Shown here in pieces: positions 8,741-48,250 of a stretch of DNA of 64,000 nt. Source of the stretch: Nitrospirota bacterium (GTDB lineage: Bacteria; Nitrospirota; Nitrospiria; Nitrospirales; Nitrospiraceae); NCBI GenBank assembly GCA_040755395.1, contig JBFMAX010000003.1, positions 124,001 to 188,000 on the forward strand, read 5' to 3'. The translations under genes were made by a program, and so were the position numbers. The notes below the pieces were generated by a model. It was not told the origin of the DNA. It searched no databases and saw only the letters and a list, made by a program, of their open reading frames with translations. Positions within the stretch are counted from its first letter, which is position 1. The number at the start of each line of letters is the position of its first letter.

Positions 8741-8743
8741 GCG

Positions 8744-9946
8744 TCAGATGTCTTTTTTCTGGAGTTCGGATTTGAGGATGAAGGCGCCCTGGATCACCAC
8801 CGGTTCGCCCTCCCGGAGGCCGTCGAGGATCTTGACCATCTGACCGTCGGAGGCGCCGAGCCTGACCTCGCGCGCCTCGAACGACTGGGCGTCGCGCTGG
8901 ACGAACACGAAGGTGCGGTTCCGGTCCCGCTGCACCGCCGCCTCCGGCACGAGCAACGCCCCGGACTCGGTTTCGGAATGGATGCGCACGGTGGCGAACA
9001 TTTCCGGCTTGAGCCGGCCTTGCGGGTTCGGCAGTTCCAGGCGGACGCTCATCGTCCGTGTCGTGGGGTCCAGCACGTCTCCGACGTAGGTGATCTTCGC
9101 CGTGAAGACGTCGTCGGGATAGGCGGCGACGCGGACTTCCGCCGTCCCGTTCGGACGGATATAGGGGATGTCCTTCTCCGGAATGTTGGCGACGACCCAC
9201 ACTTCGGACAGGTCGGCCACCACGAACAGCTTCTCCGTGGTCTCCACCACTTCGCCTCGGGTGACGTTCCGGGCGATGATCCGACCGGCGAAGGGCGCTT
9301 CGATCGGCACATAGGACCGGATCTTGTGATCGCGGTCGAGTTGTTTGATCTCTTTCTCTTCCATGCCCAGCAGCAGGAGCCGGTCTTTCGCTTCCCGCGC
9401 CTCGGCCCTGGCGCTGTAGAGCTCGGCTTCCCGGCGCTGAGCTTCCGCCGTGCCGATGACCTTTTCCTGCAACAGGAACTCGGCCCGTTTGAACGACTGT
9501 TCGGCCAGGTATAGTTTCGCCTGGGCTTTCAGGTACGCCGATTGCGCCAACCCCAACTCGCTGCTGTACAGAATCGCCAGCAGGTCGTCCGCTTTCACTT
9601 CCTGGCCCAAGTCCGCGTACACGTCCACGACCCGCCCGCGCACCAGGGTGGTGATGTCCGCAACGGCGCGTTCGTTCGGCCGGATCGTCGCGGGAAAATC
9701 CCGGAACGTCCGGAATTCGCCCCGCGTGACCGGTTGGACGGTGATGCCCGATCGCGCCGCGGTCTCCGGGTCGAGGCGGACTTCGGTCGCGGACTGCGCC
9801 GGCTGGGCCGTCGGTTTGGCGCCGGTCGCTTCATTGGGCGTCGAATCACACCCGGCCGCCAGGCTGAATATCAACACGGCGGTCGCCGGTCCCAATCCTT
9901 CTCGTTCCGTGAAGCGCATCTCGTCCTGCGTGAAGCGTCGTTCCAT
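8744..9946 (-). CDS. czcB: RND efflux periplasmic adaptor, CzcB family
   Basis: Membrane-fusion protein joining the inner-membrane pump to the outer-membrane channel; 400 residues. A signal sequence with lipobox-like LIFSLAAGC is followed by the barrel-sandwich half (VDVYADLGQEVKADDLLAIL), a coiled-coil hairpin at roughly 130-190 (QSAYLKAQAKLYLAEQSF), the second lipoyl half (APFAGRIIARNVTRGEVVE) and the beta-barrel. ATG 9946 overlaps the czcC stop as TAATG, indicating translational coupling; the longer open frame up to 10294 lies inside czcC and is a shadow. There are no His-rich metal-binding tracts. Confidence 0.92.
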   Translation of the reverse strand: MERRFTQDEMRFTEREGLGPATAVLIFSLAAGCDSTPNEATGAKPTAQPAQSATEVRLDPETAARSGITVQPVTRGEFRTFRDFPATIRPNERAVADITTLVRGRVVDVYADLGQEVKADDLLAILYSSELGLAQSAYLKAQAKLYLAEQSFKRAEFLLQEKVIGTAEAQRREAELYSARAEAREAKDRLLLLGMEEKEIKQLDRDHKIRSYVPIEAPFAGRIIARNVTRGEVVETTEKLFVVADLSEVWVVANIPEKDIPYIRPNGTAEVRVAAYPDDVFTAKITYVGDVLDPTTRTMSVRLELPNPQGRLKPEMFATVRIHSETESGALLVPEAAVQRDRNRTFVFVQRDAQSFEAREVRLGASDGQMVKILDGLREGEPVVIQGAFILKSELQKKDI

Positions 9947-11202
9947 TATAAAAATCCGGCGACGGCCCGTTCGAGCCTGGCCAGGGAGACCGACAGGTTG
10001 AAGCGGGCCAGCACGTAGTCCACGAGCACCTGTTGCCGGACCCGCTGGGCGTCCAGCACCTCCAGCAGGCTGGCCGCTCCCTGCTTGAAGCTGAATTCCG
10101 CGATGCGGAGCGCTTCCTGCGCCTGTTTGAGGAGGCCTTGCTCGAACACGTCGATCAGGTTCGCCGTCGTCTGCGCGTCCTGAAAATGCTGGTTGACGGC
10201 CCGCAGCAATTCGTTGCGGGCCCGAAGCAGTTCCGCTTCTTCCCGGCGCCTGGCACCGAGGGCTGCGGCGATCTCGCCTTGACGCAGGTACCAAATCGGG
10301 GTCGGCACGGCGATGCCGCCGTAAAACGCTTCGCGGCCGGCTTCGCGGCTGTATCCGCCGAAGACGTTGACGTTCGGCACCCGGCTCTGTTCCTCCTTCA
10401 CCACCGTGAGCCCGGCCCGCTCGACCAGGTGTTGAAGGCGACGGATGGCGGGGTGTTGTTCGAGCGCGCGGGCGGTGAGATCGCTCAGCTCCATGCTCTT
10501 GGGGAAGTGCTCGAAGTCCCCGGTGATCTCATAGGTCGGCCCCAAGGCGCCGACCGTGAGCGTGTCCAGCACCACACGATTCACCCGGACGGAGTTCTGC
10601 GCCCGCGTGACGACCTGGTTGGCTTTCAACACCTCGACCTGGGCCTTGATGGCTTCGAACTGCGGGGCTTCGCCGGATTTCACACGGGCTCTGACGATCC
10701 GCGCCACTCCCTCGACGATCTCCAAATTCTGTCTGGCCAGATCGAGGGCCTGTTGGGCCTGCAGCAATTCGTAGAAGGCGATCTTGACTTCGGCGATCAA
10801 GTTTAGCTTGACCTCTTCCAATCCCACGCTGGCGCCGGCCAAGCCCGCTTCCGCTTCCCGCTTCCTCGCCGACCGTTTGCCGGTCCATTCCAGGGGTTGC
10901 GTCAGGGTGATCGTGCGTTCCATGAGCCGCGTGCCATCGGGGTCTCGAACGACGGCGTCCGCCGTCTGGCCCAAAATGGTGGGGTTCGGATAGGCCCCGG
11001 CGGCGATCCGTTGCCCGCGACTCTCTTCGATGACCGCTTCGGCTCCGGCGACGGTCGGGTTCCGTTGCAACGCCAAGTCGATGATGTCGGGAAGTTCGTA
11101 GATACGGGGACTTGGGTCCGCCGCGCCCGCCGGGACCGCGCCCTGAAGCAGCATGATCGTGTAAGCGGCGGATATCAGGCGACGGGAAAATCTCGCTGCC
11201 AT
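9946..11202 (-). CDS. czcC: Outer-membrane efflux protein, CzcC/TolC family
   Basis: Trimeric outer-membrane channel of the tripartite pump; 418 residues. It has a signal peptide ending near VPAGAA and two OEP repeats dominated by long helices (for example IAEVKIAFYELLQAQQALDLA and RVRQQVLVDYVLARFNL). ATG 11202 is chosen because GGGAGG lies just upstream and the signal peptide follows immediately; the open frame reaches 11304 but enters a C-rich repeat. It is the first of the three pump genes (C-B-A order). Upstream, 11220-11275, is a C/G-rich inverted repeat (CCCTCCCC...GGGAGGGG). Confidence 0.92.
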   Translation of the reverse strand: MAARFSRRLISAAYTIMLLQGAVPAGAADPSPRIYELPDIIDLALQRNPTVAGAEAVIEESRGQRIAAGAYPNPTILGQTADAVVRDPDGTRLMERTITLTQPLEWTGKRSARKREAEAGLAGASVGLEEVKLNLIAEVKIAFYELLQAQQALDLARQNLEIVEGVARIVRARVKSGEAPQFEAIKAQVEVLKANQVVTRAQNSVRVNRVVLDTLTVGALGPTYEITGDFEHFPKSMELSDLTARALEQHPAIRRLQHLVERAGLTVVKEEQSRVPNVNVFGGYSREAGREAFYGGIAVPTPIWYLRQGEIAAALGARRREEAELLRARNELLRAVNQHFQDAQTTANLIDVFEQGLLKQAQEALRIAEFSFKQGAASLLEVLDAQRVRQQVLVDYVLARFNLSVSLARLERAVAGFL

Positions 11203-11339
11203 GTTCAGCCTCCCTGGTTCTCCCCCTCCCTGACCCTCCCCCGAGTTGAGGGAGGGGAGGGTGGGGGCCAGCCGCTGGACTTGTGAAATGAATCTTTGGT
11301 ACACCGCACTTGATCTGGTCGCTATAGGACGGAGAGCGG

Positions 11340-11666
11340 TTAGACCAAGGAGAGGGTGGGAGGTCGAAACAGATCCGAGTCGAAGGTCTCCCGCAGCCGG
11401 GAGACACGGTCAGCTAACCACGGTCTTGCGTGTAAGGCGATGTGAAGAGGAGAACCCTGAACGGGAGCGAACTCCGACTCGGCCGTCTCTTCGCCGTCCT
11501 CCGTTTCGGTCAGCCCCTCGGTTCCGCCCGGGAGTTGATCGTGGGCGTGGAATGGACCTCCGGACCGGTCCCGCGTCCAGTCTTCCGCGCACGCCGTACC
11601 AAGGAACTGGACAGTAAAAAGAACCGCCAATATGATAAGAAGGAGCTGACCGTGCCGACGTACCAT
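11340..11666 (-). CDS. Small secreted protein upstream of czcCBA
   Basis: A 108-residue product with a clean signal peptide (MVRRHGQLLLIILAVLFTVQ, then FLGTACA) and an acidic mature region (TEDGEETAESEFAP). ATG 11666 has GAGGGG 9-14 nt upstream. It lies 137 nt before czcC on the same strand, the position in which metal-pump operons often carry small periplasmic accessory proteins (CzcI-like); that role is inference from position only, since there are no His or Met metal-binding clusters. I do not recognise a family. Confidence 0.6.
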   Translation of the reverse strand: MVRRHGQLLLIILAVLFTVQFLGTACAEDWTRDRSGGPFHAHDQLPGGTEGLTETEDGEETAESEFAPVQGSPLHIALHARPWLADRVSRLRETFDSDLFRPPTLSLV

Positions 11667-11864
11667 TACGTCATTCCCCTCGCAACTGCCGCCTAACCCT
11701 AACACGGCGGGAAACCCTTCGGCAATTTCAATTTCCGCTCATTTCCTCATTGACAAGGTAGCCGGTTGCGAACAGCCGGCAGCTTGCAGCGATTCACTGG
11801 CGGCTGCTCGCTCTGCGCTCCTCTCCCTCCAGCGTAAGGAGAGGAATCTTTCTTTGGTCCGGAA

Positions 11865-13235
11865 TCAATTCATCGTCAGCCACCGATCGAGCAGGCGGTC
11901 CAGCACCGCGAGCCGCACCGGCTGGTCCTGCAGAAGCCCCGGCGTGACATCGGAAGGTTCAATGCCGGAAAGCTTGGCGGCGAGCAGCTCGTCCGCGCCG
12001 GTCTTGCCTTCCCGGTCTGCGGGTTGCGGGCCGGACAGGAGAATCTGCACCGGCAGCGCGGGGGCAAGGGCCTCACGCGCTTTAAGAAACGCCTGCAGGT
12101 GACCGAGGATTTCCTCGGGCGGGCGGCCGATCAGGACGATCGCGCCGACGGAGCCGGGAAGGCACTGTTCCCAGACCGACCAGAACCGCTTTTCGATGCG
12201 CACCGCGAGGAGATGGAGCGCCACGCCCGGCGCAATGCGGACACGACCGACATCGATGCGGTGAAGCGGTTTGCCTTCTTCGGTTCCCAGGGCCGCCCAG
12301 CGGGAGCCGGAGAGATCGTGCACGAGTCCCTGGATCAGCTCGCTCTTGCCCGATTTGGCCGCGCCGACGACGAGCACCCGCAACGCCAGCGGCCCGATGC
12401 CGGGCGGGCGTTGCGCGCGCACCCGTTGCGCGATCTGACCGAGCCGTTCGAGCACCTGCCGGACGGCCGGAATCTCCTGCTCTTGCGCGACCGTCGCCTG
12501 CTCCCCGCGCTGTGGCTCGGCCTCTTGCTCGTGCTCCTGCAGGGCCTGGAGGTCCTGGAAGAGGAGGTTGGCCATGCTGGCGGTGATCGGCATCCGCTCC
12601 GGCACCGCGTCCGGGATGAACATGAACCGGCCGGTTTTCCACCCCAACAGGCGAAACAACGGTTCTTCCTTCGCCGGCGATCGGATTTCCGCTTCGACGA
12701 TCACCCCGTCTCGAAAATACAGCGTGCCGGTCCGCTCTCCGTGACTGAGCACCAGCGCGCCGGTTTTCTGCTCGAGCTCCAACGTCTGGATCATATCCAA
12801 CAGATCCACGTCCTCGATCCGACCGCTCAGGCCGATCCGGTCGAGCGGAATCTTCCGGGCCTGCTCGATCCGATCCATCGCGGTCTCGACGCTCTGCGCC
12901 AGCCGTTCCAGCGAGCACGGCTTGGTGAGGTAGTCGTCCCCGCCGACCCGCCGCGCTTTCACCCGGTCCGTGTCCTGGTCTCGGGCGGTGAGAAAGATGA
13001 ACGGAATGGTGCGGGTGGCGGCGTCGCGACGGAGCCGGCTGCACAGCTCGTAGCCGTCCATGCCCGGCATGCCGATGTCGGCGATGATAAGGTCGGGCCG
13101 GTCCTCGGCGATCTTCTGGAGCGCCTCGTGCCCGTTCAGCGCCGTCGTCACCCGGCAATTACGGCCGCTCAGGTACAGCGAGACGATGCGCAACCACTTG
13201 GCCTCGTCGTCGGCAATGAGAATTTTGGGAGGCAT
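11865..13235 (-). CDS. Response regulator with DUF4388 and P-loop GTPase-like domain
   Basis: A 456-residue three-part protein. Residues 1-125 form a receiver domain (ILIADDE, phospho-acceptor Asp in DLIIADIGMPGMDGYEL, TKPCS lysine). Residues about 135-240 match DUF4388/PATAN (LSGRIEDVDLLDMIQTLELE, then TGTLYFRDGVIVEAE), a module seen in PatA and other regulators. Residues about 290-456 are a P-loop domain with Walker A GAAKSGKS and a small-GTPase-like layout (LHRIDVGRVRI in the switch region, GAIVLIGRPP in the fourth strand), but without a clear NKxD motif. It probably couples phosphorylation to a nucleotide switch. Start ATG 13235 is chosen at the first residue of the receiver fold. No kinase is adjacent. 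Confidence 0.87.
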   Translation of the reverse strand: MPPKILIADDEAKWLRIVSLYLSGRNCRVTTALNGHEALQKIAEDRPDLIIADIGMPGMDGYELCSRLRRDAATRTIPFIFLTARDQDTDRVKARRVGGDDYLTKPCSLERLAQSVETAMDRIEQARKIPLDRIGLSGRIEDVDLLDMIQTLELEQKTGALVLSHGERTGTLYFRDGVIVEAEIRSPAKEEPLFRLLGWKTGRFMFIPDAVPERMPITASMANLLFQDLQALQEHEQEAEPQRGEQATVAQEQEIPAVRQVLERLGQIAQRVRAQRPPGIGPLALRVLVVGAAKSGKSELIQGLVHDLSGSRWAALGTEEGKPLHRIDVGRVRIAPGVALHLLAVRIEKRFWSVWEQCLPGSVGAIVLIGRPPEEILGHLQAFLKAREALAPALPVQILLSGPQPADREGKTGADELLAAKLSGIEPSDVTPGLLQDQPVRLAVLDRLLDRWLTMN

Positions 13236-13324
13236 TGAGGAACCGTGACGCGTCATGCGTGACAAGTGAGGCGTGAACGGTGAATCCGAGAGTTGTCCGA
13301 CGATAACGTGTCACGCTTCACGTG
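13236..13324. repeat. Intergenic dyad repeat, CGTGAAGCGTGA family, copy 1
   Basis: Between the response regulator and clpX lie repeated units (TGACGCGTCATGCGTGACAA, GTGAGGCGTGAACGGTGA) and their inverse (TGTCACGCTTCACGTGTCAC). The same vocabulary recurs at 14690-14772, 16734-16822 and 18331-18378, always between or at the edges of genes. It can fold into imperfect hairpins and is best called an interspersed repeat family of unknown function. Confidence 0.7.
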
Positions 13325-14602
13325 TCACTGTATAATTTCCGGTTGTCCCGTGCCGTTGATCACGGCTTCGGTGATGACGACGGACTTGACGCTTGCCAGC
13401 GCCGGGACCTCGTACATCAGGTCCAGCATCACGTCTTCCAGAATCGTGCGGAGCGCGCGGGCGCCGGTTTTCATCGAGGCGGCGCGGTGCGCGATCGCCT
13501 TGACGGCGGCGTCGGTGAATTCGAGACGCACGTGCTCGAGTTCGAACAGCGCCTGGTACTGTTTCACCAGCGCGTTCTTCGGTTCGGTCAACACCCGGAC
13601 GAGCGCGTGCTCGTCGAGATCCGAGAGGGTGGTCAAGACGGGGAAACGGCCGACGAACTCGGGGATGAGCCCGTACTTCAGCAGATCATCGTGCTGGACG
13701 CGGCTCAGCAAGCCGCCGGGAGCCGCGGCCTCGCGCGTGGTCGTGCCGGCGCCGAAGCCCAGGCGTTTCTGCGTCGTGCGCTGGGCCACGATCTGCTCCA
13801 GTCCGACGAACGCGCCGCCGCAGATGAACAGAATGTTGGAGGTATCCACGCGGATGAACTCCTGCTCCGGATGTTTGCGCCCGCCTTTCGGCGGCACGTT
13901 GCAGATCGTTCCTTCCACCAGCTTGAGCAGGGCCTGCTGGACGCCTTCCCCGGATACGTCGCGCGTGATCGAGGCGCTTTCGGACTTGCGGCTGATTTTG
14001 TCGATCTCGTCGATATAGATGATGCCCGTTTCCGCGCGCTTGACGTCGTAGTCGCACGCCTGGAGCAGCTTCAGCACGACGTTCTCGACGTCCTCCCCCA
14101 CGTAGCCGGCCTCGGTGAGGGTGGTGGCGTCGGCGATGGCGAAGGGCACGTGCAGAATTTTGGCGAGCGTCTGGGACAAGAGCGTCTTGCCGGTGCCCGT
14201 CGGGCCGATCATCATGATGTTGCCCTTCTGGAGATCGACGTCCTTCAGCCGTTCCCGGCTCAGAATCCGCTTGTAATGGTTGTGCACGGCGACCGACAGC
14301 ACCTTCTTCGCGCGGTCCTGCCCGATGACGTACTCGTCGAGGATCGCTTTGATTTCGGTCGGCTTGGGGACGCGGACGCCGGCGGAGCCGTCGGTCGCGC
14401 CGCCCGCGCCTTCCTCCGCGAGGAACGCCGAACAGAGCCGAATGCACTCGTCGCAGATCAGCAGGTTCGTGCCGGTCTGGCAGGACGCGCACTGGTAGGC
14501 CGCCGGGCTTTGGACAAGACTTTTGACCGCGGTCTGCCGCTTGCCGCAGAAGGAACAGGACCGGTCGCGCTTGTCTCGATTGTGTCGTGTCTCCCAGAAC
14601 AC
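13325..14602 (-). CDS. clpX: ATP-dependent unfoldase ClpX, variant zinc-binding domain
   Basis: AAA+ hexameric unfoldase that feeds substrates to ClpP; 425 residues. It has Walker A GPTGTGKT, Walker B IIYIDEID, the pore loop GYVGEDVEN, an RKH-type loop (GGRKHPEQ) and a ClpP-docking position reading LGFGAG where IGF is typical. The N-terminal zinc domain is unusual: CSFCGKR...CASC...ICDEC carries an extra CxxC and an insert of about a dozen residues. No clpP or tig lies next to it, which is the normal context, so this may be a second ClpX-type protein. Start is GTG 14602 with AAGG upstream. Confidence 0.93.
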
Positions 14603-33746: not shown

Positions 33747-33836
33747 GATAAAAGGGGTCGGATAAAAGGGGTCGGGAGTCTTTGCAAGGCCACGGCTTGA
33801 TTAATATAAAGACTCCCGACCCCTCTCTCTTCGCCG
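33747..33836. repeat. REP-like inverted repeat, copy A
   Basis: The left arm AAAGGGGTCGGGAGTCTTT (33765-33783) faces the right arm AAAGACTCCCGACCCCT (33808-33824), with a preceding extra GATAAAAGGGGTCG unit. The same element is at 41049-41113 (both arms) and 48214-48250 (left arm only). Copies A and B bracket the type I restriction module. Such arms are typical of REP-type palindromes mobilised by RAYT (TnpA-REP) transposases; no RAYT gene is in this window. Confidence 0.8.
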
Positions 33837-33984: not shown

Positions 33985-34218
33985 ATGAGGAAACAGAACG
34001 GAATACCTCGCCTGGTTCGTGAGTTGCGGAATCGCCTCGGGCTCAGCCAGGAGAAGTTCGCGGCCAGGCTGGGCGTGACCTCTCCTACCATCAACCGATG
34101 GGAGAACGCCCGGGCGAAACCGTCACCGCTGGCGGTTGCTCGGATACGCGAGATCGCCGTGGGCCTGGGGCAAGACGGCGCTAGGCTGCTGGAGCGCTAC
34201 TTCCCGGAAGAAACGTAG
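33985..34218 (+). CDS. XRE-family HTH regulator
   Basis: A 77-residue DNA-binding protein, nearly all one HTH_3 domain: RNRLGLSQEKFAARLGVTSP, then TINRWENARAKPSPLA. It has an excellent ribosome site (GAGGAGG, 5 nt before ATG). It is the first gene of the hsd operon and overlaps nothing; hsdR starts 10 nt after its stop. A likely role is timing control of restriction gene expression. Confidence 0.88.
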   Translation: MRKQNGIPRLVRELRNRLGLSQEKFAARLGVTSPTINRWENARAKPSPLAVARIREIAVGLGQDGARLLERYFPEET

Positions 34219-34228
34219 GAGATCGCCC

Positions 34229-36565
34229 GTGCGCGAGATCAACGAAGACGAAGCCGAGCTCTTGATCGAAGCCCACCTCCGGGAGCGTGGCTGGAACGTC
34301 ACCGACTTCACGGTCACCCGCAAGCGCTGGCGCGATCACCTGGACGGCGAGGAAGCCGACCGCGTCTTCCTGCACAACGGTCGCCTCGTTGCCATCCTTG
34401 AGGCGAAGAAACCGGGGAAGGACCTCTGGGCCGCCCTGGACCAGGCCAAGGGCTATGCGCGGGCCTACAAGCGCAACACCGGCCACGACGTCCCGCTCCT
34501 CTTCGCGAGCGACGGGAAGGTCTTCCTTCGGCAGAACCTGAAGGCCAACACGCTGCCGGAACGAATCTCGAACTTCCCGACACCCGCGGAATTCGGAGAG
34601 TTCTTCCGGCCGCAGGCGGTGGAACTCCATGGCGCCCTTCGGGACTATCAGCGGGTCGCCGTGTCGCAGGTGCTGGGTGCCGTCCAGGCGGGACGTCGGC
34701 GGATGTATCTCCAGATGGCTACTGGTACGGGCAAGACCATCACCGCCGCCGGTGTCATCGCCAAACTCTGGGCCGTGGGGCTCATCCGGAGAACGCTCTT
34801 CCTAGTGGACCGCGACGCCCTGGCGGTCCAGACGGTGAAGAAGTTCAAGACGCACCTGGGAGACAACTTCAGCATCGAGCGGGCCACGGGAGCGAACGAG
34901 GACAAGCACCGCGACGTCCTGGTGACCACCATCCAGCACATGGCAGTCCGCAACAAGTATCTCGCTTATGCCCCGGACCACTTCAACCTCGTGATCCTGG
35001 ACGAATGCCATCGGTCCTACTTCGGGGACTGGTATGGCGTGCTCGATCATTTCGCCAAGGGCGGCGCGATCCTTCTGGGGTTGACCGCGACGCCAGCAGA
35101 CAAGGAGACGGTTAACACGGACCGGTTCTTCACCGACCCAGGGCAGTACCGAGGGCCGATCTACCGATACACCATCCGCCAGGGCGAGACCAATCCTGAA
35201 GTGCCGGAGTGGGAGCGGCTGGCGGCGTGCATCCACCACAAGTTCCACACGAACGTGGACCTCGAAGGCGTCCACGACATGGGATTCGACTTTGAGCCCG
35301 ATCAGCTTGGGCGCGCCGTGGACGTGCCGCAACGGAATCGACTCATCGCTGAGAAGTACTTTGAGATCCTTGGCACACGCCAACCTGTGAAGACCATTGT
35401 CTTCGCTGCCTCCATAGCTCACGCGAAAAACCTGCGCTATGCCCTCATTGAGAAGTACAACGAGCTGAACAGCCTCCCGCCGAACGATGCATCGGCGGAG
35501 AAGTTCATCGTCGCAGTCCACAACGAAATGGCGGCCGCAAGCACCTTGATTGAGGAATTCCAGAAGGTCACGGGTCCCGAAGAGCGGAAGAGCATCATTG
35601 ATCAAGCACACAAAGACCCCAACATGGACCCGCGCCCGATTGTCCTCGTGGGTGTCGGAATGCTGGACACTGGGATCGACGCGCCGGACGTGGAGGTCCT
35701 GCTCATGGCGCGTCCCACAAAATCGAAAGTCCTCTACGTTCAAATGAAAGGGCGAGGCACCCGCAAGTGTCGGGAGACAGGCAAGGAGATCTATAAGCTC
35801 GTGGACTTTGTGGACATCACGAGGCTTGAGCCGGCCATCACGAACGACACGCCCGGCGTCGAGGATGAGCCGGTCGAGCAGGAAGAGGAGGAAATCATCG
35901 AGCGCGAGCGCGGCGAGGCCGGGGAGGCAGGCGAAGGCGGCGGTGCTGGGGGTGAAGAAGGCGGCAGCGAGCAGCAGATGGTCATCGCCGATGTCCCAGT
36001 TCACCTGGTCTTCTCGGAGACGATCTCCCCGGCCGTCCTAGAGGAGCTTCGCCGCCAGGTCGAGGCCCAGCTGAAGGGAGGCATGGAGCGCGAAGGATTG
36101 AAGCAGCGGTTCGCGCAGACTATCCTTTGCTGGCGGTACTTCAAGGGGGCCACGGCGCCGGACCACTCATTCCTGGCGACGATGGGGTTCGACCTCTCCG
36201 CCCTTCGAGACCTCTATGGAGAGCCGGAAGCGACCCTGGAGGACTTCATCGCCGTAGCCACAGGCGAGGCCGACTTCGATACGCTCCAACGAAGGAGGGA
36301 GTTTGACAAGTGGGCGCTCGGGAAGAGCCTTGGCCGCGAGCAACGGGAAATGGTCCTGATGGTCTGCGACTTCAAGCGTGCCAACCCCGATATCGTACCT
36401 GAGCAGATCATCCGCAGCCAGTGGCTCGACCAGGCCGGAGGGATCATGCGCGTCAAAAGACTCTTCGGCAGCCTCGACAAGCTGATGACCCTGGCGGAGG
36501 AGGCCCTGCTGCTTTCTGCGGGTACACCCGCCGACTCGGAGGAAAAGCATGCCTCGAACCCCTGA
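34229..36565 (+). CDS. hsdR: Type I restriction enzyme, R (endonuclease/translocase) subunit
   Basis: A 778-residue motor and nuclease subunit. GTG 34229 is chosen because AGGAG lies 7 nt upstream; the open frame extends into the regulator gene. The N-terminal PD-(D/E)xK nuclease shows ADRVFLHNGRLVAILEAKKP (Asp and ExK). The SF2 helicase core has Walker A ATGTGKT, DECH, GLTATP and a C-terminal helicase half (VLVGVGMLDTGIDAPD, QMKGRGTR). An acidic, Gly/Glu-rich linker (about 555-590) precedes an EcoEI-type C-terminal region. It overlaps hsdM by 17 nt. Confidence 0.95.
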   Translation: MREINEDEAELLIEAHLRERGWNVTDFTVTRKRWRDHLDGEEADRVFLHNGRLVAILEAKKPGKDLWAALDQAKGYARAYKRNTGHDVPLLFASDGKVFLRQNLKANTLPERISNFPTPAEFGEFFRPQAVELHGALRDYQRVAVSQVLGAVQAGRRRMYLQMATGTGKTITAAGVIAKLWAVGLIRRTLFLVDRDALAVQTVKKFKTHLGDNFSIERATGANEDKHRDVLVTTIQHMAVRNKYLAYAPDHFNLVILDECHRSYFGDWYGVLDHFAKGGAILLGLTATPADKETVNTDRFFTDPGQYRGPIYRYTIRQGETNPEVPEWERLAACIHHKFHTNVDLEGVHDMGFDFEPDQLGRAVDVPQRNRLIAEKYFEILGTRQPVKTIVFAASIAHAKNLRYALIEKYNELNSLPPNDASAEKFIVAVHNEMAAASTLIEEFQKVTGPEERKSIIDQAHKDPNMDPRPIVLVGVGMLDTGIDAPDVEVLLMARPTKSKVLYVQMKGRGTRKCRETGKEIYKLVDFVDITRLEPAITNDTPGVEDEPVEQEEEEIIERERGEAGEAGEGGGAGGEEGGSEQQMVIADVPVHLVFSETISPAVLEELRRQVEAQLKGGMEREGLKQRFAQTILCWRYFKGATAPDHSFLATMGFDLSALRDLYGEPEATLEDFIAVATGEADFDTLQRRREFDKWALGKSLGREQREMVLMVCDFKRANPDIVPEQIIRSQWLDQAGGIMRVKRLFGSLDKLMTLAEEALLLSAGTPADSEEKHASNP

Positions 36566-38192
36566 CTTCAATCAGTTCGGCGAAGAGCTTTGGGAGATCG
36601 CCAACGTCTTCCGGGACGATGCCCTCCATGCCACGGAACGCCTGGAGACGTTCAGCCTTTTCCTGTTCTTGAAGCTCTGGGATGAACTCGAGACCGAGCA
36701 CGAGGAGGCGACGGGCAAGAAGCAGCCTGACAACAAACAGCTGATCCCCGAGGTCTATCGCTTTCACAACTGGGCCGCCGACCCCGATGCCTACGCGAAG
36801 GAGAAAGGTTTTGAGGACTCCGTGGATTTCTGTCGCAAGATGTTCGCAGAGCTGGCAACCCGCCACTCCTCTCACCCCACGGCGCGCGACGTGCGACGGC
36901 TGTTCAAGGACTCTCGTCTCTTACTGCGGTACTCGACGACCATCCGGCAGCTCACCTCGCGCCTCAGGGACCTGAATCTCCAAGAGATCATGTCCCGCGG
37001 CCTCGGAGAGGGTGAGCGGTACGACATCTTCGGAAGGGCCTACGAGTACCTGCTCCAGCAGTTCGGGCAGAACAAGGAGTTCGCGGAGTACTTCACGCCA
37101 CGGCACATCGTCGACCGGATGGTTCAGATCGTGGACCCCGAGATCGGCGAGACCGTTTACGACCCGGCATGTGGTACGGGCGGGTTCATCGTGCGTGCGT
37201 TCGAACTCGTTCGGGACAAGATCGAGCGGAAACGAATCTCCTTTACGGACAAGGAACGCCTGATCCGGGATCTGAAAGAGAAGCACCTCATCGGCGTGGA
37301 GCATGTCCCCCTGGTGTTCAAACTGGCCTTGATGAACATGATCCTGCACAAGGATGGCTCCAGCCTGCTCCAAAACGACGACAGCCTATCGAACAAGGCC
37401 CAGGACCTCCACAAAAACAAGTACGACGTCATTCTGGCGAATCCACCTTTCGGCCCGACCAAGCAGGAGCGGCTCGCCCAGTTCGAATACCACATCAAGC
37501 TGTACGAGGCGCTCTTCATCCAGCACATGATGAGCGCCCTGCGGCCGGGCGGGCGCGCGGCGGTCGTGCTGAAGGAAGGCCTCCTCTTCGATTCGAAGAA
37601 GATGCTCCGCAGGATTTGCCGCAAGCTGGTGGAGCAGTTCGAGGTCCTCGCAGTCATCAGCCTGCCGAACGGCGTCTTCAACCCCTACAGCGGCGCCAAG
37701 ACCAGCGTCGTCGTCTTCCGCAAGCCCCTTGGCAAGGACGACGTCCGCACGTCGAAGGCCTGGTTCTATCGGGTCGACAGCGACGGCCGCGATCTGGGAG
37801 CCACTCGCAGGCCGCTGCCGGACTTCGAGACGGACGGCGACCTCGATCATATGGTCTCCCTCTGGCCGTACACCTGGCGCCACGAAAAGGGCGGTGGGGT
37901 TCGGGCGATCTTGAAGTCCGACCGCCTGAAGGACTTCGAGAGTGAGAAGTCCTGGTGGGCGCACATCGAGGACATCCGTAAGACCGACTACAACCTCACG
38001 GCCGGCCGTTACTGCCCGCATCAGGCGCAGGCCGTCCAACACGAGAAGCCGGAGGTCCTCATCAACCGCCTCCTGGACCTCGAGGAGGAGATCAAGACGG
38101 ACCTCCAGGACCTCTTGACGCTCGTGACGGTGCCGACGTCGGTTGAGGGTCTTAAGAGATCGGTCCGCTTTGAGAAGCAGCCCGGGGAGTGA
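36549..38192 (+). CDS. hsdM: Type I restriction-modification, N6-adenine methyltransferase subunit
   Basis: A 547-residue methylation subunit. The N-terminal HsdM_N helical domain (about 5-150) precedes the SAM-dependent methyltransferase fold with motif I DPACGTGGF and the catalytic NPPF, typical of gamma-class N6-adenine methylation. The C-terminal part includes GAKTSVVVFRKPLG and a final coiled region (LLDLEEEIKTDLQDLLTLVT). It partners with HsdS for target recognition. Confidence 0.96.
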   Translation: MPRTPDFNQFGEELWEIANVFRDDALHATERLETFSLFLFLKLWDELETEHEEATGKKQPDNKQLIPEVYRFHNWAADPDAYAKEKGFEDSVDFCRKMFAELATRHSSHPTARDVRRLFKDSRLLLRYSTTIRQLTSRLRDLNLQEIMSRGLGEGERYDIFGRAYEYLLQQFGQNKEFAEYFTPRHIVDRMVQIVDPEIGETVYDPACGTGGFIVRAFELVRDKIERKRISFTDKERLIRDLKEKHLIGVEHVPLVFKLALMNMILHKDGSSLLQNDDSLSNKAQDLHKNKYDVILANPPFGPTKQERLAQFEYHIKLYEALFIQHMMSALRPGGRAAVVLKEGLLFDSKKMLRRICRKLVEQFEVLAVISLPNGVFNPYSGAKTSVVVFRKPLGKDDVRTSKAWFYRVDSDGRDLGATRRPLPDFETDGDLDHMVSLWPYTWRHEKGGGVRAILKSDRLKDFESEKSWWAHIEDIRKTDYNLTAGRYCPHQAQAVQHEKPEVLINRLLDLEEEIKTDLQDLLTLVTVPTSVEGLKRSVRFEKQPGE

Positions 38193-38193
38193 C

Positions 38194-38514
38194 ATGGCCA
38201 CGGCAACGCAGCGAATCCGAGAACATGTCGGGAATCCCAGGGCCCATGTCTGGGCGTTCTGCTTCACGTCCATAGCCCGGGAGCGAGCCAGGCAGTCCGA
38301 TCCTGCCTCCGCATCCAAGAGCAACCACCAGCGCCTTGGCGATGCGTGGAAAAGCTACCTGATGCCGCTCTGGCGTTTCCGGTCTAGGCTAGCTCTTCCA
38401 GGGACGACGTGGCTTCTCTGTGAGGACGGCGTGGCTAGATACCTCAAGGCGGGCGACACACTGCGGCTCCTCGATCAGGCCAAGAACGTCCTCGGGTGGG
38501 AGGATGGCAGATGA
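38194..38514 (+). CDS. 106-aa protein inside the hsd operon, unknown
   Basis: ATG 38194 follows the hsdM stop after 1 nt and has GGGGAGTG upstream; the stop overlaps the hsdS start as ATGA. The tight packing implies co-translation with hsdM and hsdS. The product is basic and compact (HVWAFCFTSIARERARQSDP; LALPGTTWLLCEDGVARYLK), with no membrane segment or catalytic motif that I recognise. A small accessory or anti-restriction/assembly role is only a positional guess. Confidence 0.65.
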   Translation: MATATQRIREHVGNPRAHVWAFCFTSIARERARQSDPASASKSNHQRLGDAWKSYLMPLWRFRSRLALPGTTWLLCEDGVARYLKAGDTLRLLDQAKNVLGWEDGR

Positions 38515-40184
38515 AGCTGACGTCCAATCTTAAGGTGCGGGGGTGGAGAAAGGATGCGTTGGGACGCTACATCCAGCTTTCCAACGGCAAAGGAATTACA
38601 GCGAAGCAGATGGGACCCGACAAACTGATCCCAGTGTATGGATCTAGCAGCATAATAGGTTACGCGGATGAACCGCTCATTTTCTCGGACACCATTGTGA
38701 TTGGTCGCGTCGGCGCCTGTGGGTCAGTTCAAGTCGCTAAGGCGCCGTGCTGGGTAAGCGACAATGCGATGTATGTCAGCAACTTGCGACGTGAAATCGA
38801 CTTCGAGTTCCTGTTCTATCTGCTCGATTACCTGCAGTTGGGGCGTCTCGCTAGTCGCACAATGCAACCTAGCCTTCCGCAGGGTCCAATCTTGGAGCAC
38901 GAATTCCTGCTTCCTCCCCTCCCAGTCCAGGAGCGGATCGTCCAGATCCTCCAGAAGGCGGATGAGATTCGCCGCAAACGACGGGAGGCGCTTGAACTCG
39001 CGGACAAGATTCTGCCAGCCATTTATAAAGAGGCATTCGGCGATCCAATAGGTCAAAATTCGACGTTTCCCAAGGCGCGGCTCGGGGATTGCGCCGATAT
39101 CAGACGTGGCATTTCTAAAAGGCCCACGCCGAAGGGAACTGTGCCGATTGTTCGCATAAAGAACCTCACTCTCTCGGGCCTTGACCTTTCATGTTTCGAA
39201 AGGGTAGAGGCAAACGAACAAGAAGTCGCACGAGCACAACTCGCTGAAGGGGACATTGTTTTCTCCCCGTTGAACGGTAGTATCCATCACCTTGCCAAAT
39301 CCGATGTCTTCCACGCGCCAGTCGGGGGCAATATTTGGGTTTTGGATTCAAACCTATGTGCATTTAGAGCTAGGCCGGAGATTATACGTCCCACGTTCCT
39401 GGCCACCTGGCTTTCGCTTCCCGAGGTTCTGGGCCATCTTCGAACGAAGTTGGCAGTTCGCACCAGTGGAGGCCAGTGGTTACTGAAGAACACGACGCTA
39501 GCCTCCATTGAGATTCCACTGCCTTCGCTGTCTCAACAAGATTATTTCGTCACACAAGCGCAGCAGCTACTTCAGGCTAAAAGAGGCTTGGCAAGGGCTT
39601 CCAGCGACTCGACTGCTGCGTTTTCGAGCCTGCTTTCTCGCGCCTTCACCGGAGAGCTGACCGCCGAATGGGAAGCAGCCAACGCGGAGTGGATTGCCGC
39701 CCAGCAGGCGCTCCATGAGCGCGTGCCGCGGCTAGTGGTTCTCGCCCTGCTCTCGGAGAAGGTGAAACGTACGACTCGGACAGCGGCCCAAGTCCTGGTG
39801 ACGGCACTCATGAAGTACGCCTTCCTCCTGCAGATGGAGGGCAACGGCGGGCGCAGGAGGATCTACCACTTCGTGCCCTACCACTACGGTCCCTTCGCCA
39901 AGGAACTCTACACCGACCTCCAGTCGCTCCAGGAAGAGGGCCTGGTGCGCGTGGATGACGACTCGGAAGAGGACAAGACCAAGATCACGCTGGTCGATCG
40001 GGCCAAGGCCGACGAGGCGCTCGCCGCGCTGCCGGATGACCTGCAGGAGGACGCGGCGACGATCATCGAGATCTACGGCGACCTCGATCACAACGCTCTG
40101 CTGAAGACCGTCTACGAGAAATATCCCGCCTACGCCAAGAAGAGCCGCCTCCGGCGAGGGCAAGGACGACAATCCCCGAGCTAA
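38511..40184 (+). CDS. hsdS: Type I specificity subunit fused to a SocA/Panacea-like domain
   Basis: A 557-residue protein. Residues 1-~400 are HsdS: TRD1 (about 15-140), a central coiled helix (LPPLPVQERIVQILQKADEI), TRD2 (about 185-345) and a second helix (IPLPSLSQQDYFVTQAQQLL). A normal HsdS would stop near FTGELTAEW. Here about 130 more residues follow (RTAAQVLVTALMKYAFLLQM; YHFVPYHYGPFAKELYTDLQ) with the aromatic YGPFSKEL-type signature of YwgA/SocA/Panacea-type domains, known as antitoxin or chaperone-linked modules. ATG 38511 has GGGAGG upstream and overlaps the preceding stop. TRD DNA is lower in GC than hsdM and the C-terminal extension. Confidence 0.85.
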   Translation: MKLTSNLKVRGWRKDALGRYIQLSNGKGITAKQMGPDKLIPVYGSSSIIGYADEPLIFSDTIVIGRVGACGSVQVAKAPCWVSDNAMYVSNLRREIDFEFLFYLLDYLQLGRLASRTMQPSLPQGPILEHEFLLPPLPVQERIVQILQKADEIRRKRREALELADKILPAIYKEAFGDPIGQNSTFPKARLGDCADIRRGISKRPTPKGTVPIVRIKNLTLSGLDLSCFERVEANEQEVARAQLAEGDIVFSPLNGSIHHLAKSDVFHAPVGGNIWVLDSNLCAFRARPEIIRPTFLATWLSLPEVLGHLRTKLAVRTSGGQWLLKNTTLASIEIPLPSLSQQDYFVTQAQQLLQAKRGLARASSDSTAAFSSLLSRAFTGELTAEWEAANAEWIAAQQALHERVPRLVVLALLSEKVKRTTRTAAQVLVTALMKYAFLLQMEGNGGRRRIYHFVPYHYGPFAKELYTDLQSLQEEGLVRVDDDSEEDKTKITLVDRAKADEALAALPDDLQEDAATIIEIYGDLDHNALLKTVYEKYPAYAKKSRLRRGQGRQSPS

Positions 40185-40190
40185 CTTTGG

Positions 40191-41042
40191 ATGACCACTC
40201 ACCTGTCCGTGAGATTGGCTTGGCACGACAGAGGCTGGGACGGCCGCGTTTGCGACGCGCCCCACCTCAACGCCCATTGTATCGTCCACCAGCATATCCG
40301 CGACTCAAGAGATGACGACAAGGAGCGCAAGGCCGCCGGCGTGCCTCTCGCGGAGCTGGACGGCTGGCTCCCGCCCTGCTCTCGCGATCCGGCCGCCTAC
40401 GCGGACCGCGGCTTTGTAATCGTTCACCGGGACCCGCTTGAGTTCAGGCAGCTACCGCCTGTTTCGGAGGAGATTCCTCCGTATTCGTCGTGCCCGGCCC
40501 CGTACCGCTGGATGCGCGAGGAGTTCTTTCAGGAGGTCTGCGAGGCTGAAGACCTGAGCATTCGGGGCCCCGACCAGTCTCGGAGCAACGGGTGGGTCTT
40601 CGAGCCGGATCGGCAGCGGGAACTTCTCAAGCGGTTCTGGGGGAAGTTGGAGGCCGGCCGATCCCTCGTCTTCTACTACTGCAACCATGGGAACCCTCTC
40701 GACGAGAACACGCCTCGCGTCATCGTCGGGGTGGGGCGGATCGCCGACGTTGGTCAGCAGCTCTACTTCGGCACGACGCCGAAGTACCAAGACCAATATC
40801 CGGTCTGGTCGCGGCGCATCAGCCAAGCCTACGCCAGCCAGGGTGTCCGCATTCCGTATCAGGAGTACTTGCGCGGAGGGCACTCCACGGACGACATCGT
40901 CTGTCGAGTGCCCCGGAGCGCACTACTCCCCTTCTCCTACGGCGCGGAGCATGTCTCCGACGATGTCGCCGTCGCCATCCTGGAACGCATCATCCAGTGC
41001 GTGGAGCGGGTAAGGGCAGACGGTCACGTCTCGGGCGGTTGA
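40191..41042 (+). CDS. Probable N-terminal domain of a larger defence ATPase, truncated
   Basis: A 283-residue protein starting 6 nt after hsdS. It begins HLSVRLAWHDRGWDGRVCDA and continues with WVFEPDRQRELLKRFWGKLE and VFYYCNHGNPLDENTPRVIV. I recall this kind of start from the N-terminal domain of large ATPase/helicase proteins in defence loci, but I cannot verify that. No Walker motif is present in this ORF, and it ends 6 nt before a REP-like repeat and a decayed insertion sequence. I infer that the motor part was lost, or that the domain functions alone. Confidence 0.5.
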   Translation: MTTHLSVRLAWHDRGWDGRVCDAPHLNAHCIVHQHIRDSRDDDKERKAAGVPLAELDGWLPPCSRDPAAYADRGFVIVHRDPLEFRQLPPVSEEIPPYSSCPAPYRWMREEFFQEVCEAEDLSIRGPDQSRSNGWVFEPDRQRELLKRFWGKLEAGRSLVFYYCNHGNPLDENTPRVIVGVGRIADVGQQLYFGTTPKYQDQYPVWSRRISQAYASQGVRIPYQEYLRGGHSTDDIVCRVPRSALLPFSYGAEHVSDDVAVAILERIIQCVERVRADGHVSGG

Positions 41043-41048
41043 GGAGAA

Positions 41049-41113
41049 GATAAAAGGGGTCGGGAGTCTTTGCAAAGCGGCGGCTTGATAAAGACTCCCG
41101 ACCCCTTTCTCTT
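41049..41113. repeat. REP-like inverted repeat, copy B
   Basis: Perfect 19-bp arms AAAGGGGTCGGGAGTCTTT (41053-41071) and AAAGACTCCCGACCCCTTT (41090-41108) around an 18-nt loop. It marks the right edge of the hsd module. The following TTTCTCTTCGAT is duplicated (about 41105-41131). Confidence 0.85.
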
Positions 41114-41142: not shown

Positions 41143-41214
41143 ATAGGCGTATCCTCCCCGCAGCTTCAAACCATCGGCCCTGGCAGGGGCCGGCACAAGG
41201 AGGAATACGCCTAT
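41143..41214 (+). promoter_or_regulatory. Hairpin masking the transposase ribosome site and start codon
   Basis: ATAGGCGTATCCTCC (41143-41157) is complementary, with one bulge, to GGAGGAATACGCCTAT (41199-41214). The right arm contains the Shine-Dalgarno AAGGAGG and reaches into the ATG at 41213. Transcripts entering from outside would fold and hide the start, a known way for insertion sequences to avoid read-through expression. It may also include the left IS end, since GTATCCTCCCC resembles the inverse of GGGGGGATAC at 42455-42464. Confidence 0.6.
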
Positions 41215-42453
41215 GGGCAGGGAGTCTACCAGATCGGAGCAGCTGAGAAAAGCCAAAGCGGAGCGACTGATGCAGGCGCTGAGTGAGCCGGATCCGCTGA
41301 CCGTCGCGCTGCGCGGGAAGATCCGGGAATGCCTCGAAACGTTGGTGACCACCGAACTGACCGAGGCGCTGGCGGCGGTCCGGTAGGCCCGCGGGCCGAG
41401 TCGCCAGGGGTCTCGCTATGGGTGGATTCAGCGGACGCTGACCACCGGGCTGGGGCCGACGGCCGTAACCCTGCCGCGGGCGCGCCTGCACCAGGGGCCT
41501 AAGACGATCGAATGGCGCAGCCGGCTGATCCCCCGGTATGAGCGGCGGGCGGCCGCGGTCGATGCGGCGATGCTCGGCTGCGCCTGCAGCGGGGCGAATG
41601 GCCGGCGGATCCAAGGGGCCCTGGGGCCGTTGCTGCGGGGCGCACCGCTGTCGAAGAGTGCGGTCTCCCAGCTTGTGGGCCAGGTGACCGCGCTGGATGC
41701 ACACGGGCATCGCCGCGACCTGAAGGCGGAGCGGGTCGTGATCCTGTCCCTGGATGCCATTGCCGTGCGAGTCCGGCTGGATCGCCAGGTGGGCTCGGTC
41801 CCGGTGCTGGTCGCGCTGGGCGTCCGCGCCGACGGGCAGAAAGTCGTGCGGGATCTGGAGATGCTGACCAGCGAGTCCACGACGGCCTGGAGCGGGTTCG
41901 TGGAGAGCCTGATCGCCCGGGGGCTGTCTCGGCCGCACCTGTGTGTGATCGATGGCAGCCCTGGGCTGCGCGCCGCCGTGGAGACCAGCTGGCCCGGGAT
42001 CGCCGTGCAGCGGTGCGTCGTGCATAAGCTGCGGAATCTGGAACGCCATGCGCCCCGCCACGCCCGGGAGGAGCTCACGGCGGACTCTCACCGGATCACG
42101 GAAGCCGAGTCCGGTGCGCTGGCGCGGCAGGCCTCCCACGCCGTTGTGGCCAAGTGGGAGAAACGCCTGCCCAAGGTGACCGCCAGCTTGCGGGAGGCGG
42201 GCGAGGAATGGCTCACGTTCGATCGCCTCCCGGCCAGTCAGTGGAAGTGTGGGCGCAGCACCAACGCCAGTAGCGGCTGAATGAAGCATTCCGCCGCCGG
42301 GTCAAGACGCAAGGGGCGCTGCCGACGGCCCAGACGACCGAGCTGCTCGTCTACGGCCTGTTGCTCACGGGACAACTTCGGATGCGGCGCATCGATGGGT
42401 GGCGCGAGATCGCAGCGATCCCGGCCGCCGTGGGAACACCGACGGCTGCCTAA
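41213..42453 (+). pseudogene. IS256-family (mutator type) transposase, inactivated
   Basis: Reading from ATG 41213, one frame gives an IS256-type transposase, interrupted by an in-frame TAG at 41384-41386 (after LTEALAAVR) and continuing with SRYGWIQRTL and LSKSAVSQLVGQVTALDAHG. DDE-type motifs are visible: Asp in VILSLDAIAV and CVIDGSPGLR, with HKLRNLERHAP after. Near 42271, in the conserved TNAIERLN motif (here TNASSG), one base is missing, and the last part (RLNEAFRRRVKTQGALPTAQ) lies in the next frame, ending at 42453. One nonsense and one frameshift make it non-functional. Confidence 0.85.
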
Positions 42454-42683: not shown

Positions 42684-42829
42684 CCCATCATCAACGACAG
42701 CGACCGCGTGCTGGCGAAGCACTACGGCTTCACGGACGAGGAACTCGACTTCATCATCAACTACGACACCTGCCTGCCGGCAGGCAGGTCAAGTACCGCA
42801 TGGGCCAGGATGCGGGGGAAGAAGTATGA
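42684..42829 (+). pseudogene. C-terminal remnant of an Eco57I-like DNA methyltransferase, copy 1
   Basis: The frame reads PIINDSDRVLAKHYGFTDEE and then LDFIINYD, typical of the extreme C-terminus of Eco57I/PglX-type adenine methyltransferases, where it continues as IKYRMGQ. The continuation is present but displaced by a 20-bp palindrome (42769-42788). Removing exactly those 20 bp restores NYDIKYRMGQDAGEEV and a stop at 42827. No upstream catalytic part remains; the preceding 230 nt have no gene. Confidence 0.7.
42768..42789. repeat. Perfect palindrome inserted in the methyltransferase tail
   Basis: CCTGCCTGCC followed at once by GGCAGGCAGG (42769-42788), extended to 22 bp by flanking A and T. 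It splits the Ile codon of NYD-I-KYRMG. The clean insertion into an otherwise intact conserved motif shows that this palindrome moves as a unit. Confidence 0.85.
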
Positions 42830-42914
42830 AAGCTGGGATGCCAGAACAGGTGTTGCAATCCAGGCTGAACCCTGGGAACATGATGGGAGCGATCTGGGAA
42901 GAGAGGAGGCGACC

Positions 42915-43154
42915 GTGAATTATCAACAGTTCATCGTGCGCGATCCGAAAGTCTGTGGCGGGGAGCCGGTAATCAAAGGCACACGGGTGACCGTGCGGAC
43001 GGTCTTGGCGAGCCTCGCAGAGGGCGCCAAGGTCGAGGAAATCCTTGAAGACTTTCCGACGCTCAAGGAAGAGGATGTCCGCGCTGTGATCGCCTTCGCT
43101 GCCGCATCCGCCGAGGAAGACCTGCCGGTCCAGAGCGTGCCGGACATCCAGTGA
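42915..43154 (+). CDS. DUF433 antitoxin
   Basis: A 79-residue protein of the DUF433 family, VapB-like antitoxins with a small HTH-like fold: VRDPKVCGGEPVIKGTRVTV, ILEDFPTLKEEDVRAVIAFA. GTG 42915 has AGGAGG 5-10 nt upstream; the open frame upstream belongs to the methyltransferase remnant. The stop overlaps the start of the toxin gene as GTGA. Confidence 0.87.
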   Translation: MNYQQFIVRDPKVCGGEPVIKGTRVTVRTVLASLAEGAKVEEILEDFPTLKEEDVRAVIAFAAASAEEDLPVQSVPDIQ

Positions 43155-43534
43155 GGATCAAGCTAGACGAAAATCTTCCCCTCAGGCTCGTTCGCATTCT
43201 GGCCGAACTTGGCCATGAGACCGATACCGTTCCGCAGGAAGGCTTGGCCGGCCAGGATGACGCTCACGTCTGGCAAGCGGCACAAACGGTCGGTCGCTTT
43301 TTCATCACGCAGGATTTGGACTTTTCGGACGTGCGCCGATTTGCGCCAGGCACCCACCACGGCCTTCTACTTGTGCGCTTACGGGATCCCGGCCGCAATG
43401 CGCTCGTGAGTCGGGTTCGAAGCCTCTTTCAAACAGAAAACGTTGAGGCATGGAAGGGATGCTTTGTCGTGGCGACCGAACACAAGGTTCGGGTCCGGTC
43501 GCCCAAGCAACAGAACGATCCGAACAAAGGCTAG
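43151..43534 (+). CDS. DUF5615 PIN-like toxin
   Basis: A 127-residue protein of the DUF5615 (Mut7-C/PIN-like) family, the usual partner of DUF433. The N-terminal strand IKLDENLPLRL carries the first acidic residue; later motifs are GQDDAHVWQAA and FFITQDLDFSDVR, the acidic cluster expected for metal-dependent RNase activity. The start is GTG 43151, coupled to the antitoxin stop. It appears intact. Confidence 0.87.
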   Translation: MRIKLDENLPLRLVRILAELGHETDTVPQEGLAGQDDAHVWQAAQTVGRFFITQDLDFSDVRRFAPGTHHGLLLVRLRDPGRNALVSRVRSLFQTENVEAWKGCFVVATEHKVRVRSPKQQNDPNKG

Positions 43535-48213: not shown

Positions 48214-48250
48214 TGGGGTCGGATAAAAGGGGTCGGGAGTCTTTGCACAA
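48214..48250. repeat. REP-like repeat, copy C (left half only)
   Basis: GGGGTCGGATAAAAGGGGTC followed by GGGAGTCTTTGCA matches copy A over 33 bp (33754-33786). The inverse arm is absent, so the junction at 48.25 kb probably marks a deletion or recombination end of the island. Confidence 0.8.

Follow-up and report, generated by a model that had tools for sequence, protein, structure and literature searches.

The known analogue of an RNase guarded by a restriction-modification (R-M) system is PrrC-EcoprrI, as set out in the excerpt of PMC3710099. PrrC is an ABC-ATPase-HEPN protein. In a second arrangement, described in the excerpt of PMC12255303, DarTG2 is lodged inside a type I R-M operon under the repressor RptR, and DarG is a separate protein encoded between hsdS and hsdR. 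The C-terminal domain of DarG is reported to occlude the DarT active site by mimicking single-stranded DNA, according to the excerpt of PMC11481870, which cites Deep et al. 2023. The Panacea domain often does not itself neutralise in multidomain antitoxins and is proposed to act as a sensor there (PMC10440598, in excerpt). SocA/Panacea antitoxins (PF13274, DUF4065) are encoded in two-gene toxin-antitoxin loci.

The locus analysed here lies in a window of 64,000 nucleotides (contig 3, positions 124001–188000) from a Nitrospirota bacterium and encodes an HsdS subunit with a C-terminal extension, which by its sequence is assigned to the wider SocA/Panacea superfamily. It shares with the DarTG2/RptR operon of PMC12255303, as excerpted, the presence of toxin-antitoxin-type genes within an R-M operon and an upstream repressor, and differs in that HsdS itself carries the DarG-like domain as a fusion. 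The open-access literature, as sampled through listings and excerpts, yielded no description of an HsdS with a SocA-, Panacea- or DarG-like domain. Extended HsdS proteins are already present in databases without comment, since the PADLOC model PDLC03184 spans HsdS together with the extension and carries no name beyond that of a type I specificity subunit.

HsdR, HsdM and HsdS are encoded together in the window and constitute a type I R-M system; Pfam, NCBIfam and PADLOC agree on all three subunits. The features of the operon and its borders are the following:

33768–33823: palindromic repeat, just upstream of the operon
33985–34218, + strand: XRE/HTH_3 regulator of 77 aa, directly upstream of hsdR (Pfam HTH_3, 49.3 bits)
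34229–36565, + strand: hsdR, 778 aa with a GTG start, EcoAI-like restriction/translocation subunit (ResIII, 127.9 bits; HSDR_N, 31.0 bits)
36549–38192, + strand: hsdM, 547 aa (N6_Mtase, 194.3 bits; PADLOC MTase_I, E 4e-133)
38194–38514, + strand: 106-aa ORF, remnant of a PIN-domain gene (aligned with its intact counterparts in L037 and L042)
38511–40184, + strand: hsdS with the C-terminal extension, 557 aa (two Methylase_S matches, Pfam, 68.3 bits; PDLC03184, E 4.4e-125)
39696–40184, + strand: HsdS extension, residues 396–557, assigned to the SocA/Panacea superfamily, predicted extended winged helix like the DarG C-terminal domain
40191–41042, + strand: 283-aa ORF, N-terminal portion of a RecD-like helicase gene of the PDC-S68 type (PDLC05065, E 1e-70, positions 5–296 of 1221)
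41056–41105: palindromic repeat, immediately downstream of the operon, where the 283-aa ORF is cut short

HsdR scores 238 bits against the NCBIfam EcoAI model, below its cut-off of 550. HsdM and HsdS match MAD2 and MAD5 models; membership in MADS was rejected, HsdM reaching 108.9 bits against the NCBIfam MAD2 cut-off of 720. The core of the palindromic repeats (AAAGACTCCCGACCCC, 16 bases) has 37 matches in the genome, often as inverted pairs, and the repeats flanking the operon are therefore not special to it. A third copy occurs in the window at 48229–48244. Downstream, a Mutator-family transposase gene (Transposase_mut, 154 bits, partial) at 41181–42450 is apparently broken by frame changes. 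At 42708–43534, a few kb from the R-M operon, a DUF433 gene is followed by a DUF5615 (PIN-like) gene that overlaps it by a few bases; from the sequence, the couple is likely a toxin-antitoxin pair.

The typical C-terminal motif of HsdS, FTGELT, occupies residues 379–384, and the window protein continues for about 160 residues beyond it. The initial annotation had thus recognised a genuine extension and underestimated its length (about 130 residues); the KYAFLLQ...YHYGPFAKELYTDL pattern that it reported there is present at residues 435–470. The extension is spanned by PDLC03184 (profile positions 421–550 of 554, E 1e-67) and is also matched in PADLOC by PDC-M19A (5.5e-19) and DarG (3.5e-6). These last two matches and the confidently predicted fold speak against a plain HsdS C-terminus, a reading that had been raised at the outset and was rejected. 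PDC-M19 is a PADLOC candidate system in which the N-terminal domain of M19A is homologous to the extension; PDC-M19A is a separate protein with a DUF488 domain, unlike the HsdS fusion. Neither DUF488 nor the DarG macrodomain appears among the Pfam matches of the window HsdS, and among the Pfam, NCBIfam and PADLOC families that the scanned window proteins match, none is named DarT.

The best Pfam family for the window extension is SocA_Panacea (PF13274), at 15.7 bits and E 0.029, below the cut-off of 25.7 bits. Extensions of related HsdS proteins score 12.7–23.4 bits, also under the cut-off, with the highest value for the Sulfolobus protein and no match reported for L042. A standalone haloarchaeal relative, WP_050049451.1 (tblastn E 3e-7), exceeds the cut-off at 26.7 bits and appears as a DUF4065 protein in the excerpt of PMC8832971. 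The window extension gives E 2.4e-6 with the NCBIfam DarG model, and all seven of the related HsdS extensions tested match it as well (8.4e-7 to 1.2e-4), always through the C-terminal part of the model; all of these matches lie far below its cut-off of 250 bits, which is set for whole DarG proteins. Alignment of 29 extension-like sequences with 20 Panacea domains using hhalign gave a score of 41.6 and a probability of 91.4%, compared with 11.3 on average and 20.9 at most for 100 column shuffles of the Panacea alignment and 11.0 for the reversed alignment. The Panacea domains were those above the Pfam cut-off among 21 matches listed, one with an internal stop having been dropped. This profile-profile homology, well above shuffles, places the extension in the wider SocA/Panacea superfamily as judged by sequence. 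The earlier SocA/Panacea-like call therefore holds at the superfamily level, with the Pfam threshold missed and DarG as the nearest structure. Relative to SocA/Panacea antitoxins, the extension further differs in being part of a restriction subunit.

A search of the window's own genome with PF13274 at E ≤ 0.001 matched a different gene and did not recover the extension. The genome encodes a separate Panacea protein (L001, contig 6, 52.3 bits), and L003 on contig 1 is a weak relative of the extension that stands alone.

The structure of the extension was predicted with AlphaFold2 from the 29-sequence alignment (pLDDT 91.4, pTM 0.86) and consists of a long helix, a winged helix and C-terminal helices. 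The top Foldseek matches in the PDB are chains D and B of 7yk3 (E 1.7e-3 and 3.4e-3, probability 1.00), and no match reaches E 0.001. 7yk3 is the DarT-DarG complex, in which chain B is the DNA ADP-ribosyl glycohydrolase DarG. By VIA-align, 7yk3_B superimposes at Z 13.1 (144 residues, rmsd 4.0, 17% identity), followed in the ranking by an ORC winged helix at Z 11.8 (103 residues). The closest solved structure to the predicted model is thus the toxin-binding domain of the DarG antitoxin, which matches nearly the whole extension. The extension differs from DarG in lacking the macrodomain and in its fusion to HsdS. In PDB sequence searches, the window extension alone gave nothing useful and an 8-row profile gave chance-level matches without DarG; a 29-row profile returned DarG (7yk3) first, with a weak E of 0.038. 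A model of the whole HsdS (AlphaFold2, seven sequences, pLDDT 75.6) contains two recognition domains and two long helices, with the extension attached via a further helix.

The wing of the predicted winged helix is acidic in all seven close HsdS extensions, which would fit a protein-binding or DNA-mimicking surface better than a DNA-binding one. The domain core is acidic as well (net charge –6 to –10). It is scarcely credible that the extension is a DNA-binding winged helix that widens the contact of HsdS with DNA, an idea favoured by the fold and by the many MarR-type and ORC winged helices in the structure match lists and opposed by the acidic wing and core and by the structure match that spans nearly the whole domain, which is to a toxin-binding domain.

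HsdS proteins with the same extension were found at eight loci, the window included, and their neighbours were compared, as the initial annotation had proposed. The seven loci besides the window are:

L034: Sulfolobus islandicus plasmid
L037: Desulfovirgula
L038: Nitrospirae
L039: Bacterium HR37
L040: same phylum as L041
L041: Armatimonadota; the contig ends about 0.5 kb past hsdS
L042: Lyngbya

A genome scan by two short peptide patterns, which may miss relatives, confirmed 30 loci out of 119 candidates, and six of these (L037–L042) are fusions. The locus L005 (from G192) is apparently the same as L038 and was counted once. None of the other 24 is an HsdS fusion: the ones examined further proved to be PDC-M19A proteins with DUF488 (present in the L043, L050 and L067 proteins), and the rest were judged by eye from the neighbours listed. 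Extended HsdS occurs in 2 of 395 genomes of the window's phylum, 1 of 292 for the phylum of L042, 1 of 299 for that of L037 and 2 of 221 for that of L040 and L041, with no further fusions in these samples beyond the known ones. The plasmid search gave the Sulfolobus fusion only. No HsdS fusion was found in viral contigs, no match to the extension in phage records, and no near match to hsdM-hsdS in E. coli genomes. The extended HsdS belongs to a rare and widely scattered type I R-M lineage that is present in several bacterial phyla and on a Sulfolobus plasmid. HsdR is 73–88% identical among seven close loci despite their spanning several phyla, which suggests horizontal spread.

Pairwise identity of the extension follows that of HsdR (Spearman 0.95) and HsdM (0.77) and not that of the HsdS core (0.33), over 21 non-independent pairs and with only the larger piece of the split hsdM of L042 included. 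Divergence of the extension shows no grouping by effector type. Neither pattern is expected of a dedicated partner of one toxin. In L042 the hsdM gene is split into two ORFs that overlap by 4 nt (5944–7625), and the same locus keeps an intact PIN gene.

Candidate effectors are encoded beside hsdS in several of the related loci. An intact protein encoded in the hsdM-hsdS gap of L037 and L042 contains a PIN domain (47.8 and 27.8 bits, Pfam cut-off 23.6), with acidic residues, identified by eye, at the positions expected for PIN nucleases. Only short broken pieces of the tail of this protein are found upstream of hsdS in L038 and L039, and no such tail was seen in L040, L041 or L034. Phage records, viral contigs and plasmids contain no relatives of the PIN protein. 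A DUF3644 gene (166 bits) follows hsdS with a 4-nt overlap in L038 and lies downstream of hsdS, beyond one other gene, in L039. The sequences RDTVVH and RDTAVH in these two proteins fit the HEPN motif Rx4-6H by eye, and DUF3644 is a HEPN family according to the excerpt of PMC3710099. An intact candidate RNase gene is thus found at or near hsdS in four of the eight fusion loci. No candidate effector is seen beside hsdS in L040 or L034, and the downstream side of L041 is nearly unseen because of the contig end. A short ORF in the hsdM-hsdS gap of L039 was tentatively read by eye as GIY-YIG; this reading was rejected, as the ORF has no Pfam match. The likeness to EcoprrI-PrrC is the RNase-type gene among the hsd genes of a type I operon, which is found intact in relatives (L037 and L042) and not in the window. 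The effector candidates of the relatives are PIN or DUF3644 proteins, unlike PrrC, and the window genome has lost its own.

The two additional genes of the window operon are both remnants, since the PIN catalytic domain is missing from one and the other is truncated. The 106-aa ORF is assigned to no Pfam family. It aligns to the C-terminal ~100 residues of the 380-aa PIN protein encoded intact in the hsdM-hsdS gap of L037 and L042. In the stub, about six residues from the N-terminus of that protein run on in frame into this C-terminal part. At the sequence level this is consistent with an in-frame deletion, although the N-terminal match could be due to chance with so few residues. Differences from the intact genes are weighted to third codon positions. 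In the window, L037 and L042 alike, the PIN gene or its stub terminates in a 4-nt overlap (ATGA) with the beginning of hsdS. This overlap suggests that the two are translationally coupled and that there is a reason for the stub to stay open. Over its first 282 residues, the PDC-S68 protein of L040 (~1,180 aa, with RecD-like helicase domains) shares 83% identity with the 283-aa ORF, which by this alignment is assigned as the first quarter of a RecD-like helicase gene. The homology ends beside the palindromic repeat, and the remainder of the gene was not found in the window genome by a search made without a positive control. The XRE regulator was not found in L034 or L037–L042, with a tblastn match only in L058. 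The initial annotation took this regulator and the two extra genes as marks of a modified defence system; the regulator is present in the window and was not found beside the relatives' R-M genes, and the extra genes are decayed.

The tentatively preferred explanation is that the extension is an antitoxin-type docking domain that holds an exchangeable RNase effector and releases it upon loss of HsdS or blocked restriction, the effector of the window having been lost. While intact, the HsdS/HsdM(/HsdR) complex would keep an RNase-type effector (PIN or HEPN DUF3644) inactive via the extension; if HsdS were lost or restriction blocked, the effector would be released, following the logic of PrrC-EcoprrI. 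Binding, silencing and release of the effector are inferred as the most likely functions of the extension. Three points favour this explanation: the superfamily is one of toxin binders, hsdS and the PIN gene are coupled, and RNases of a second family are encoded close by. Against it, intact effector candidates are present in only half of the fusion loci, the window keeps only a stub, and gene adjacency alone is weak support because type I R-M operons often carry accessory genes. Also counting against it are the divergence of the extension in step with HsdR and HsdM, the score of the window extension below the Panacea cut-off, and the frequent lack of neutralisation by Panacea itself in multidomain antitoxins (PMC10440598, in excerpt). 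The back-up response first suggested for this protein thus gains circumstantial support from the relatives (PIN in L037 and L042, DUF3644 in L038 and L039) and lacks an effector in the window itself. With the PIN catalytic part gone, the window locus probably functions at present as a plain type I R-M system, in which the docking domain has outlasted its effector.

It is rather doubtful that HsdS itself is the antitoxin, with the hsdM-hsdS junction and the 3' flank of hsdS serving as exchange slots for RNase effectors (PIN, HEPN DUF3644) silenced by the DarG/Panacea-like domain, and with a phage or plasmid factor that dismantles the R-M complex freeing a back-up toxin. If the docking explanation is correct, a single subunit would link the recognition of DNA to self-methylation and to immunity against the toxin, as a one-protein version of the logic of PrrC-EcoprrI and of R-M-embedded DarTG. 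It would explain how an R-M system can punish its own loss or inhibition and would provide a testable role for an antitoxin domain in a multidomain complex, the sensor role of Panacea being so far a hypothesis.

Nearly as likely as a docking or antitoxin role is a function intrinsic to this type I R-M lineage, and the two may operate together. The extension would then dock HsdR or HsdM, or sense the state of the complex, and so control assembly or restriction, with the nuclease neighbours being defence-island cargo. It is present in all eight loci regardless of their neighbours, including those where no effector is seen. The only two HsdM matches at E ≤ 1e-150 among the 395 genomes of the window's phylum lie in the two genomes that carry the extension, and the identity of the extension tracks HsdR and HsdM rather than the HsdS core. 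The sensor function proposed for Panacea in the excerpt of PMC10440598 points the same way. Conversely, the best-characterised members of the superfamily (DarG C-terminal domain, PanA, SocA) are antitoxins, and the 4-nt overlap of the PIN stop and the hsdS start occurs in both intact cases. A more distant HsdM relative on a Marinitoga plasmid, 41% identical, is part of an M-S fusion without the extension.

It is quite improbable that the extension is a SocA-like proteolysis adaptor, which would recruit a protease such as ClpXP to remove HsdR acting on unmodified host DNA as a built-in form of restriction alleviation. One of the fusions sits on a Sulfolobus plasmid, and the Sulfolobales are not known to have ClpXP; the nearest fold is that of DarG and not SocA, with no solved SocA among the structure matches listed. 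In its favour, the superfamily includes SocA, a proteolysis-promoting antitoxin (PMC8832971, in excerpt), and restriction alleviation of EcoKI works through ClpXP, as stated in the excerpt of PMC11109961.

Two further arrangements were observed among the related loci. In L038, the region downstream of the extended hsdS (6480–14170) is a defence cluster in which the DUF3644 gene is followed by genes for a 1,219-aa DrmD-like helicase with a Swt1-like HEPN domain and a 1,040-aa TmtA-like protein. In L066 (1–4719), a PDC-M19A gene and the gene next to it lie between hsdR-like and hsdS-like genes, which places a Panacea-like protein in trans inside a type I operon.
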